The notes under the pieces were generated by a model. That model did not search any database. It was given only the letters and a program-made list of their open reading frames with translations, and was not told where the DNA came from. Position numbers and translations under genes: made by a program. Below, piece after piece: positions 2,511 to 23,440 of a stretch of 64,000 nucleotides of DNA. Source of the stretch: Halobacteroides halobius DSM 5150 (GTDB lineage: Bacteria; Bacillota; Halanaerobiia; Halobacteroidales; Halobacteroidaceae). How positions within the stretch are numbered: the stretch's first letter is position 1; every line of letters starts with the position of its first letter. The stretch covers positions 1,302,001 through 1,366,000 of the forward strand of contig NC_019978.1 in the NCBI RefSeq assembly GCF_000328625.1, in the 5' to 3' direction.

Positions 2511-2529
2511 ATAAACAAAATAGAATATA

Positions 2530-2614
2530 AAGCTAGGGGTGCCTTAATTAGGCTGAGAGAAGCTAAACTTCAACCCTATAACCTGACCTAGGTAATACTA
2601 GCGTAGGGAAGCGA
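2530..2614 (+). promoter_or_regulatory. TPP riboswitch (THI element)
   Basis: The conserved THI-box blocks appear in order: AGGGGTGCC, GGCTGAGAG, ACCCTATAACCTGA, TAATACTAGCGTAGGGAAGC. This is the thiamine diphosphate sensor. An 8-bp hairpin (about 2615-2631) and an intrinsic terminator (2638-2674) follow before thiS, so ligand binding probably attenuates transcription of the thiazole operon. Confidence 0.95.
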
Positions 2615-2637
2615 ACTGATAATTTATCAGTACATAT

Positions 2638-10204: not shown

Positions 10205-10326
10205 TTCCCTCATTTCTCAGAAGTTAAAACTTCTGCAGGAGTTGGCACCACTGTAACATCTAAACTCAAACTTGTTACTGGTTGCCGGGCTTCATCGGGC
10301 CAGTCCCTCCACCACTCTCAATAAGG
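10205..10326 (-). promoter_or_regulatory. SAM-I riboswitch (S-box)
   Basis: The minus strand shows the S-box blocks in order: CTTATTGAGAGTGG, GGAGGGACTGGCCCGATGAA, GCCCGGCAACC, GGTGCCAACTCCTGCAG and a closing TGAGAAATGAGG. It senses S-adenosylmethionine. With the following terminator it should switch off the reactivation protein-metH-metF operon when SAM is plentiful. Confidence 0.96.
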
Positions 10327-10349
10327 ATGATATTTAATTATTGTGCATA

Positions 10350-19915: not shown

Positions 19916-19944
19916 TTGAAATTTAATGCATCTAATGGTATAAT
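19916..19944 (+). promoter_or_regulatory. Sigma-A promoter of the RAT-controlled ABC operon
   Basis: TTGAAA (19916-19921) and TATAAT (19939-19944) have 17-base spacing. The transcript would start near 19951, about 30 bases before the RAT hairpin. Confidence 0.8.
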
Positions 19945-19979: not shown

Positions 19980-20014
19980 CTGGTGTGTTACTAATTCGAT
20001 TAGGCATTAGCCAG
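19980..20014 (+). promoter_or_regulatory. GlcT-type ribonucleic antiterminator (RAT)
   Basis: The outer CTGG/CCAG stem encloses GTGTTACT-AATTCGATT-AGGCATTAG. This fits the BglG/LicT RAT consensus (GTTACTG...CAGGCA). From memory it closely matches the B. subtilis ptsG RAT bound by GlcT, with the apical G-C pair replaced by A-T. The last six bases are shared with the 5' arm of the terminator, so a bound PRD-type antiterminator would prevent terminator formation. No antiterminator gene is in this window. Confidence 0.8.
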
Positions 20015-20104
20015 GGGAAGATATAGAAACACATTAAAAGAGTAAATTCTGTTTATCAAACTCCTTTAGTGTATAACTATGTCTTTCTCTGGCTATTTTT
20101 ATTT
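20009..20104 (+). terminator. Long terminator overlapping the RAT
   Basis: AGCCAGGGGAAGATATAG (20009-20026) pairs with CTATGTCTTTCTCTGGCT (20077-20094) over 18 positions, three or four of them G-T, followed by ATTTTTATTTT. Inside the loop ACAC..TAAAAGAGT can pair with ACTCCTTTAGTGT. The 5' end overlaps the RAT, as in PTS-regulated antitermination systems. Confidence 0.8.
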
Positions 20105-20143
20105 TAAAACTAAAAATAGAGCATAAGTCTATAAATCTACAAG

Positions 20144-20193
20144 CCTGCTAACTGCTTATCTTTAAAAGATAGGTATAGCAGGTTCTACTTTTT
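20144..20193 (+). terminator. Second terminator-like hairpin in the same leader
   Basis: CCTGCTA/TAGCAGG, with an inner TATCTT/AAGATA stem, is followed by TTCTACTTTTT. It lies about 75 bases before the binding-protein start. It could be a second attenuation step or an mRNA-stabilising structure. Confidence 0.5.
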
Positions 20194-20269: not shown

Positions 20270-21568
20270 ATGATTAACAAAAAAATTACTGCAATTACAT
20301 TGACATTAGTTTTATTGGTAAGTTGTTTGGTATTTACTAATAGTAAGGCAAATGCTTGGTGGATTTTTGGTGATGATGAAAAAGAAACAGCAAAAAAAGT
20401 AGAGATTTTCAGTTGGTGGACTGGAGGAGGAGAAGAAGAAGGACTACAAGCTTTGTATGATGTTTTTAAGAAAAAGAATCCTAATATCAAGATCATTAAT
20501 GCAGTAGTAGCTGGTGGAGCTGGTTCTAATGCAAAAGCTGTACTTAAAACCAGAATGGTTGGTGGCAACCCTCCTGATTCTTTCCAAGTTCATGGTGGAG
20601 CAGAATTGATTGAAAACTATGTTAAAACAGGATTGATGCAGCCACTTACTGGTTTGCTAGAAAAATGGGGGGTCAAAAATAAATTTAATCAACAAATTCT
20701 TGAAATGTGTAGTTATAAAGGAAAAATTTATTCTATTCCATTAGATGTACACCGTGGGAATGTGTTATGGTATAACAAGGATTTACTACAAAAGTATAAT
20801 ATCCAACCCCCTACAACTCTTTCTTCTTTCATAGCTGCTCTTGAGAAAATAGATAAACAAGGTAATCATACTCCTTTAGCTTTAGGAGATAAGAATAAAT
20901 GGACAGCAACTCATCTTTTTGAGGATGTATTACTTGCTACATTAGGAGCTAAAAAATATAATGGTTTATGGGAAGGAACAACAAGTTTTGATCATCCTAA
21001 AGTTAGAGAGGCTCTTATAAAGTTTGGTAAAATAATGGATTATGTTAATGATGATCATGCTGCTTTGACCTGGCAAGATGCTACTAAACGTGTTTATGAT
21101 GGAGAAGCCGTCTTTAATGTGATGGGAGATTGGGCAGAAGGCTACTTTAAAACACTGGGTTGGAAACCAAATGAAGATTTTGGTTGGCTAACTACTCCTG
21201 GTAGTAAAGGTAATTTCATGGTAGTTACAGATACCTTTGGGCTTCCTAAAAAAGCTCCTCATCCTAAAGGAGCTAAAGCATGGTTAAAAACAGTTGCTTC
21301 ACTTAAGGGCCAAGTTACCTTCAATAAAATCAAAGGAGCTATCCCAGCTAGAATTGATGCTGACCGAAGTAATTTTGATCCGTATTTAACTGATTCAATG
21401 AAAGATTTTGCTTCTACTACTCTAGCACCTTCTATAGTACATGGTTCAGCAGCAGCTCCTGGATTTGTTACTGCTTTAAATGATGCTATTAATGCCTTTG
21501 TAACTGTCCAAGATGTAGATGCCACACTAAAAGCAATTCAAGATGCTGCTAATAAATATCTAAAATAA
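20270..21568 (+). CDS. Sugar ABC transporter substrate-binding protein (glucose/mannose-type)
   Basis: 432 residues from the ATG at 20270, chosen because AAAAGGGGG lies just upstream. A signal peptide (about 1-29, ending ANA) is followed by WWIFGDDEK. The mature part resembles GtsA-type glucose/mannose-binding proteins: FSWWTGGGEEEGL, SFQVHGGAEL, VHRGNVLWYN and FNVMGDWAEGY. The h-region contains LVSC, lipobox-like, but the downstream ANA site looks better, so it is probably a free periplasmic protein. The GlcT-type RAT upstream supports glucose as ligand (inference). Confidence 0.87.
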   Translation: MINKKITAITLTLVLLVSCLVFTNSKANAWWIFGDDEKETAKKVEIFSWWTGGGEEEGLQALYDVFKKKNPNIKIINAVVAGGAGSNAKAVLKTRMVGGNPPDSFQVHGGAELIENYVKTGLMQPLTGLLEKWGVKNKFNQQILEMCSYKGKIYSIPLDVHRGNVLWYNKDLLQKYNIQPPTTLSSFIAALEKIDKQGNHTPLALGDKNKWTATHLFEDVLLATLGAKKYNGLWEGTTSFDHPKVREALIKFGKIMDYVNDDHAALTWQDATKRVYDGEAVFNVMGDWAEGYFKTLGWKPNEDFGWLTTPGSKGNFMVVTDTFGLPKKAPHPKGAKAWLKTVASLKGQVTFNKIKGAIPARIDADRSNFDPYLTDSMKDFASTTLAPSIVHGSAAAPGFVTALNDAINAFVTVQDVDATLKAIQDAANKYLK

Positions 21569-21628: not shown

Positions 21629-22609
21629 GTGAAAAGAAAAATCAAAGAATCTCTTGCTTTCTTGCCTACACTTTCATCATTATCTAACAGAAAAACCAAA
21701 CAAACGCTTATTTCTTTAGGCTTTTTAGCCCCATCAATAATTGCAGTTTTTATATTTGTTTATGGCTTTATTGCTCGTACAATTCAAGTTTCTTTTTTAA
21801 ATTGGAATACTTTTGCAAAGCTATTACAAGGAAAGAAAAATTATATAGGTTTGAAAAATTACATAAATTTATTTCAGGATCCTAGATTTCAGACTGATTT
21901 ATGGAATACATTATATTTTACCTTATTTTTTATATTAGGTTGTTTATTCGTTGGAATACTTTTATCAGTCTTAGTGGATAATATTCCTAAGGGGGCATAT
22001 TTTTTTCAAAATCTTTATTTATACCCTTTTGCCTTATCTTTTGTGGTCACAGGTACTGTCTGGAGATGGATTACTGCTCCTGGTAATTTACCTGATAATC
22101 CTTATGGCTTAAATCTATTATTAGAAAATCTAGGTCTAAGCAATTTACAGTGGGGGTGGTTTACTAGCACTACTAATCTATTTGGTTTTAATATAGCTTT
22201 AATTCCTGTTTTAATTGCTGCTATCTGGCAATTTTCTGGTTATACAATGGCTATGTGGCTAGCAGGATTAAAAGGAGTTCCCCAGCAGTTAATAGAAGCT
22301 GCTAGAATTGATGGTGCTTCTAAATGGCAGATCTTCACCAAAATATTATTTCCTATGTTACGTCCAGTTACTTTATCGGCTATTATTGTCTTGGCCCATA
22401 TTTCTCTAAAAGCATTTGCGCTGATTTACTCTATGACAGGAAGCGGACCCAGTAATGTAACAGATATTCCTGCAGTCTACATGTTTGAAGCTACCTTTCA
22501 AGCTAATCGATACTCTGCAGGAGCTAGTATAGCTATTATTTTACTAGCTTTAGTTGGTGTCCTAATCATTCCGTATCTAATTTATAATTACAATAGGGGG
22601 GAGAATTAA
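21629..22609 (+). CDS. Sugar ABC transporter permease (MalF/GtsB-type)
   Basis: A 326-residue membrane protein with an extended basic N-terminus (about 1-25), six membrane segments and the EAA loop EAARIDGASKWQIFTKILFP. It starts at GTG after CGGAGGTGA. Its stop immediately abuts the start of the next permease. It forms the importer with the preceding binding protein. Confidence 0.92.
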   Translation: MKRKIKESLAFLPTLSSLSNRKTKQTLISLGFLAPSIIAVFIFVYGFIARTIQVSFLNWNTFAKLLQGKKNYIGLKNYINLFQDPRFQTDLWNTLYFTLFFILGCLFVGILLSVLVDNIPKGAYFFQNLYLYPFALSFVVTGTVWRWITAPGNLPDNPYGLNLLLENLGLSNLQWGWFTSTTNLFGFNIALIPVLIAAIWQFSGYTMAMWLAGLKGVPQQLIEAARIDGASKWQIFTKILFPMLRPVTLSAIIVLAHISLKAFALIYSMTGSGPSNVTDIPAVYMFEATFQANRYSAGASIAIILLALVGVLIIPYLIYNYNRGEN

Positions 22610-23440
22610 ATGACCCTAATTCAATCTAAACAAAATAAATTTATAGCTTATACAACCTTAGTTTTATTTGCTTGTTTTTTTCTACTTCCTGGTTATATAC
22701 TATTAACAACTAGTTTAAAATCTTTTAGTCAAGCCTCTATTAGCAATATGTGGGATTTACCAACCCAATTTTCTTGGCAAGGATTTATGACAGCATTAAA
22801 AAAGCTAGGTCCTCACTTATTAAATAGTTTTTATTTGGTTATTCCGGCTACTTTTTTTTCAGCTATACTAGGTTCATTTAATGGTTACATTCTATCCCAA
22901 TGGAAGTTTAAAGGATCAGATACTTTATTTGCTTTATTGTTATTTGGAATGTTTATTCCCTACCAAAGTATTTTAATACCTTTAGTGAAGTTTTTGCAGG
23001 AAATCAATCTTTATGGGTCCATGCCAGGACTTATTTTTGTGCATGTTATTTATGGAATTCCAATAACTACTTTAATGTTTAGAAATTATTATGCCGAAGT
23101 TCCTTCAAGTTTAACTGATGCTGCTCAAGTAGATGGGGCAGGAATTGTAGGTATCTATAGACATATCTTTTTTCCAATCTCTCTACCTGGTTTTGTAGTA
23201 GTTGTTATTTGGCAATTCACAAATATTTGGAATGAGTTTTTATTTGCAGTAACTATAACCAATAGTCCTGCTAACCAACCAATTACTGTAGCTTTAGTTA
23301 ATCTAGCCGGAAGTCAAGTCGTAGAATGGAATGTTCAAATGAGTGGAGCATTAGTAGCAGCTCTTCCTACATTAATTATCTATATATTATTTGGCAGATA
23401 CTTTATTGAAGGACTTTTAGCTGGTTCTGTTAAAGGTTAA
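22610..23440 (+). CDS. Sugar ABC transporter permease (MalG/GtsC-type)
   Basis: A 276-residue membrane protein with six segments and the EAA loop DAAQVDGAGIVGIYRHIFFP. It starts directly after the stop of the upstream permease, with GGGGGGAG as SD. It ends in FIEGLLAGSVKG, typical of this family. A strong terminator follows, so the operon is binding protein plus two permeases, without an ATPase. Confidence 0.92.
   Translation: MTLIQSKQNKFIAYTTLVLFACFFLLPGYILLTTSLKSFSQASISNMWDLPTQFSWQGFMTALKKLGPHLLNSFYLVIPATFFSAILGSFNGYILSQWKFKGSDTLFALLLFGMFIPYQSILIPLVKFLQEINLYGSMPGLIFVHVIYGIPITTLMFRNYYAEVPSSLTDAAQVDGAGIVGIYRHIFFPISLPGFVVVVIWQFTNIWNEFLFAVTITNSPANQPITVALVNLAGSQVVEWNVQMSGALVAALPTLIIYILFGRYFIEGLLAGSVKG

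Follow-up and report, generated by a model that had tools for sequence, protein, structure and literature searches.

The leader in front of a three-gene ABC sugar importer in the halophilic anaerobe Halobacteroides halobius DSM 5150 is very probably a GlcT-responsive transcription attenuator, with EIICB-Glc as its sensor. Based on the 64,000-nucleotide stretch of DNA that we analysed (the window) and on the rest of the genome, a GlcT-type RAT attenuator at this place is well supported by the sequence, and an ABC importer behind such a RAT is a variant of PRD/RAT antitermination not known before. The RAT, the terminator, their overlap, a single GlcT, two sister sites, the genes for EI, HPr and EII, and conservation in a second genus were all observed directly. 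The leader has the RAT class, terminator overlap, compensatory change and cognate CAT-RBD/PRD protein by which attenuators of this kind are recognized. The classic example of a PTS permease that governs its own synthesis is control by a PRD antiterminator; with the same switch in front of ABC importers, that permease would come to act as sensor for another route of uptake, one driven by ATP. PTS glucose sensing appears in this way to be extended to ATP-driven sugar uptake.

The RAT, an antiterminator hairpin, occupies positions 19980-20014 of the forward strand and reads CTGGTGTGTTACTAATTCGATTAGGCATTAGCCAG. Its core, TGTTACTNNTTCGNNNAGGCA, occurs a single time in the 2.65 Mb genome when up to two mismatches are allowed. 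A covariance model (R3), trained only on 13 RATs of glcT and ptsG from this and related genomes with the ABC leaders left out, scored the hairpin at 42.1 bits (E 8e-10), with the next-best match in the window at 13.9 bits. The preliminary description of this DNA had noted a resemblance to the GlcT RAT of ptsG, which is upheld by this model that is blind to ABC leaders, and the hairpin shows the GTGTTACT...AGGCAT pattern that is conserved in the GlcT class. The apical pair that had been called compensated is indeed so, being CTAATTCGATTAG in the window versus CTGATTCGATCAG in Bacillus-type ptsG RATs. A RAT of the SacY/LicT class was rejected because the AGGCAT-NAG side belongs to the GlcT class. 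In an alignment of 17 RATs, which we collected across the order (13 genomes), no sequence breaks any of the five outer-stem pairs, and both sides have changed in four of the ten pairs, so that covariation supports two helices, the outer and the apical stems; the score was exceeded by 3 of 500 shuffles, for a set of 17 sequences that are related to one another. No Rfam entry reached the gathering threshold on the leader, and matches below it were at chance level. Elsewhere in the window, TPP and SAM riboswitches were found at gathering threshold at 2525-2626 (+) and 10207-10327 (-).

It is hardly conceivable that a terminator leader resembles a RAT here by chance. A loose RAT pattern with three mismatches does match the window in about one third of the shuffles, and because this is near chance, covariance models were used in its place; the hairpin, however, shows zero mismatches, and chance resemblance is refuted by its score with the blind model, by an overlap with the terminator that is as it should be for a RAT, and by a counterpart that is conserved in another genus of the family (genome G010).

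The intrinsic terminator has a 19-bp stem, formed by a 5' arm at 20008-20026 and a 3' arm at 20077-20095 on the forward strand, and is followed by TTTTTATTTT, with the T-rich tail ending at 20104. The 3' arm of the RAT supplies the first 7 nt of the terminator (20008-20014), and the two hairpins are therefore mutually exclusive. Both the overlap and the terminator had been recognized before and stand, while their sizes are corrected from six bases to 7 nt and from 18 to 19 bp. The leader folds at -40.9 kcal/mol versus -22.1 for dinucleotide shuffles (z -5.7). Taken singly, the terminator reaches -38.5 kcal/mol and the RAT -8.8, so the terminator is expected to win when no protein is bound. A candidate sigma-A-type promoter, TTGAAA-17-TATAAT at 19916-19944 (+), lies after the stop codon of galM and ahead of the RAT and would give the operon its own start. 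It agrees with 11 of 12 consensus positions and has a TG ahead of the second hexamer, a consensus match of a kind expected several times in shuffled sequence. A further strong hairpin (CCTGCTA...TAGCAGG, 20143-20183), the only one of its kind in the window, is located between the terminator and the start of the binding-protein gene and perhaps plays a role in mRNA stability; the corresponding leader of G010 has no room for it.

The genome searches proposed in the preliminary description, for an antiterminator of the BglG family and for PTS components, both returned what was sought. Exactly one CAT_RBD protein was found in the whole genome, which is GlcT by NCBIfam (344 bits, equivalog cut-off 320) and whose nearest solved structure is 3rio, the PtsGHI operon antiterminator. 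This protein contains the Pfam CAT_RBD domain and two PRDs, as befits an antiterminator, and its PRD1 motifs HIHIALADH and LHIH align with 3rio, with the conserved histidines kept. The glcT gene is located about 92 kb from the window together with crr, followed by ptsG-crr-ptsH and a second EIICB-Glc gene; the gene for EI lies outside this PTS region, near C1:2557000. With EI, HPr, two EIIA-Glc and two EIICB-Glc encoded, the phosphate chain to GlcT is complete in outline. That the hairpin is bound by a different PRD protein, or by an RNA-binding protein of another family, is very improbable: the genome does encode several more PRD proteins, but these are without a CAT RNA-binding domain, a second CAT-RBD protein as binder was rejected on the single CAT_RBD match, and the RAT of the ABC leader is of the same class as those of glcT and ptsG.

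Two further RATs of the genome, with the other loops GTGTTACTGAATTATCAGGCAT and GTGTTACTGGTTAAGCAGGCAT, are situated directly 5' of glcT-crr and ptsG, where they overlap a terminator in the same manner as in the ABC leader. The exact loop pattern used earlier (TTCG) misses both because their loops differ. Since a RAT with a terminator also precedes glcT and ptsG, the ABC leader makes up, with these two, a small regulon of three sites. A RAT in front of an ABC importer is accordingly found as first described, although not "instead of" a PTS permease but rather in addition to one, as ptsG keeps its own RAT. In most of the Halanaerobiia read, glcT itself stands behind a RAT (e.g., L003:12845, minus strand), unlike the constitutive glcT of B. 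subtilis, which implies positive autoregulation.

In B. subtilis, GlcT acts by antitermination at the RAT of ptsG (gswA) through a RAT-terminator mechanism (PMC12445079), and in the absence of glucose its PRD1 receives phosphate from the glucose EII (PMC12445079; PMC7430163). The system described here is similar in RAT class, in the overlap of RAT and terminator, in having a single GlcT and in the glucose EII as presumed phosphate donor. It differs in that the described target of B. subtilis is ptsG, with glcT under a constitutive promoter, whereas here RATs precede glcT, ptsG and the operon of an ABC importer. By analogy with B. subtilis, GlcT binding, its control by phosphorylation and read-through would operate as follows. 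RNA polymerase would initiate from the promoter near 19916-19944 and, unless prevented, stop at the terminator (20095-20104). When a glucose PTS substrate is taken up, EIICB-Glc would pass its phosphate to the sugar, leaving GlcT unphosphorylated on PRD1; GlcT in this state would bind the RAT at 19980-20014 and block the terminator. Transcription would then enter the glucose-type ABC importer, glcT-crr and ptsG together, and the PTS permease would be the sensor of an importer that is driven by ATP and carries this sugar or a related one.

The importer operon consists of three forward-strand genes: a glucose-type (CUT1) solute-binding protein (20270-21568), ABC permease 1 (21629-22609) and ABC permease 2 (22610-23440). 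The binding protein, previously described as of the glucose/mannose type and followed by two ABC permeases, has as its nearest solved relative the glucose-binding protein of Thermus thermophilus (2b3b; phmmer E 1e-105, nearly full length), in agreement with that description. Its NCBIfam match is to GlcS, and the best NCBIfam matches of the permeases are the archaeal glucose ABC permeases GlcT and GlcU, all three under their equivalog cut-offs; the archaeal permease GlcT and the antiterminator GlcT are unrelated and have only the name in common. A Thermus-type binding protein with two permeases is the composition of a CUT1 glucose importer, and as the target genes include no PTS protein the operon falls outside a classical GlcT regulon. 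Glucose ABC importers of the Thermus thermophilus type (2b3b; GlcS family) likewise combine a binding protein with two CUT1 permeases and have no ATPase of their own; the relatives read differ in lacking a RAT, and several have a two-component system upstream. A UgpC/MsmX-type ATPase, above its family cut-off, is encoded elsewhere in the genome and, judged by its family, could serve the operon, which is without an ATPase. The genome also contains a ROK glucokinase-like gene that scores slightly under its family cut-off.

Judged by these similarities, the imported sugar would be glucose, with galactose possible. The operon sits in a galactoside-degradation island with genes for GH2, GH42, GH36, GalK, GalT and GalE, a location that keeps galactose among the possible substrates. 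The leader might then be under GlcT control while the importer takes up galactose, or some other hexose set free by the nearby glycosidases, so that PTS glucose flux would open the uptake of a companion sugar. We consider this doubtful. In its favor, the operon lies between GH2, GH43 and galM genes on one side and a GH42-GalE-GalK-GH36-GalT cluster on the other, and glucose-binding proteins of this family, such as the Thermus protein, can also bind galactose. The best solved relative nevertheless bears the name of a glucose-binding protein, and the RAT-bearing ortholog in G010 is outside any galactoside cluster. The island as a whole is large (window positions 11909-38804), surrounds the RAT operon and contains two further CUT1 importers beside genes for GH2, GH43, GalM, GH42, ROK, GalE, GalK, GH36 and GalT.

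To follow the RAT in front of glucose-type importers, we compared the binding protein among 13 genomes of the order. The sole close ortholog, with 59% identity and 592 bits, belongs to G010, which represents a different genus of this family; every other match in the order stays below 81 bits. This ortholog has a RAT and a terminator upstream and two permeases downstream, and its RAT reaches 44.2 bits with R3, a model that contains no ABC leader. G010 encodes a single GlcT. A glycogen-synthase-like gene pair precedes the operon there and a GGDEF/HD protein follows it, with no galactoside cluster around them. No RAT was detected in stretches of up to 6 kb on each side of the 80 closest relatives of the binding protein elsewhere in GTDB, where the best match was partial (14.8 bits). 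Four of these RAT-less relatives, at 60-68% identity, are from named species or isolates of Halanaerobium, and such close relatives without a RAT indicate that the wiring is not general. GlcT RATs do occur upstream of glcT and ptsG in G212, which we take to be Halanaerobium, and in further members of its genus. It therefore seems that RAT control of the importer was acquired within the family of the present genome. The same importer has a RAT in two genera but lacks it in Halanaerobium, where GlcT and RATs persist elsewhere in the genome; this clean natural comparison makes the movement of an RNA switch onto a new operon directly testable.

Several non-halophilic relatives have two-component regulator genes upstream of the same ABC operon, so that control by other means is normal for it. 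The RAT could accordingly be a relic, or be bound with weak effect, with the operon expressed mainly through CcpA, a two-component system or constitutive read-through. This is unlikely, since RAT, terminator and overlap are intact in two genera and carry compensatory changes, as a relic would not.

A scan for RATs in 59 genomes of the taxonomic class yielded two further sites in the family. In G006 (L282, C5:209500-214500), a RAT scoring 45.1 bits and its terminator are followed by genes for a XylF/ChvE-like binding protein, a double-domain CUT2 ATPase and a CUT2 permease. In G010 (L283, C6:45500-50700), a weaker RAT (29.2 bits), also with a terminator, precedes a gene for a XylF-type binding protein orthologous to that of G006 (62% identity), and then a gene for a methyl-accepting chemotaxis protein; the arrangement suggests that expression of this pair is gated by the PTS. 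Each of the two genomes encodes one CAT_RBD protein. The stretches of the H. halobius genome that were read showed no XylF-type importer lacking a RAT. As the binding proteins and permeases of CUT1 and CUT2 are unrelated, ABC genes have acquired an upstream RAT on at least two occasions, or on four if every site is counted singly. It is likely that GlcT, at first a switch for ptsG, became a regulator with a broader role in glucose sensing in this Halobacteroidaceae-like family. Two classes of ABC importer that are unrelated to each other (CUT1 glucose and CUT2 XylF) would have been captured separately, as would, in one genome, a binding protein beside a chemoreceptor gene, with PTS flux gating ATP-driven uptake.

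Targets other than PTS permeases are known for related antiterminators. SacY and LicT act on sacB and bglS. As here, RAT antitermination then serves a gene for something other than a PTS permease, although those targets are secreted enzymes and not importers. The closest, partial precedent for ABC targets is NagY of Enterococcus faecalis, for which RIP-seq identified four ABC sugar-transporter genes, ef1232 and ef2223-2221, with putative RAT motifs (PMC12502629). NagY is likewise a BglG-family antiterminator with its own RAT and direct non-PTS targets that include ABC sugar-transporter genes; it differs in responding to N-acetylglucosamine, being neither GlcT nor linked to a glucose ABC importer (PMC12502629). 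The RATs of its targets are motif matches (P<0.01 within 200 bp), evidence of which terminator overlap is not a part (PMC12502629). No ABC importer controlled by GlcT was found in the openly accessible literature searched, a scope that makes this weak evidence of absence.

The same covariance-model approach applied to the phylum recovered a RAT in 50 of 398 genomes, a figure in which remote RATs are under-sampled because the model was trained on this order. Outside the order, 56 of the 59 sites examined precede PTS or glcT genes, and none of the 59 precedes an ABC importer. One of the remaining three is located at a contig end, and the other two, in other Bacillota (L216:1151-1197 and L229:3836-3858), are GlcT-like RATs upstream of genes for secreted N-acetylhexosaminidases of families GH84 and GH20, resembling the control of hyaluronidase-type enzymes by NagY. 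In L217, L227 and L228, a RAT is situated directly before ptsI-ptsH, the genes for EI and HPr, so that from its placement the general PTS proteins themselves appear to be RAT-controlled in some genomes.
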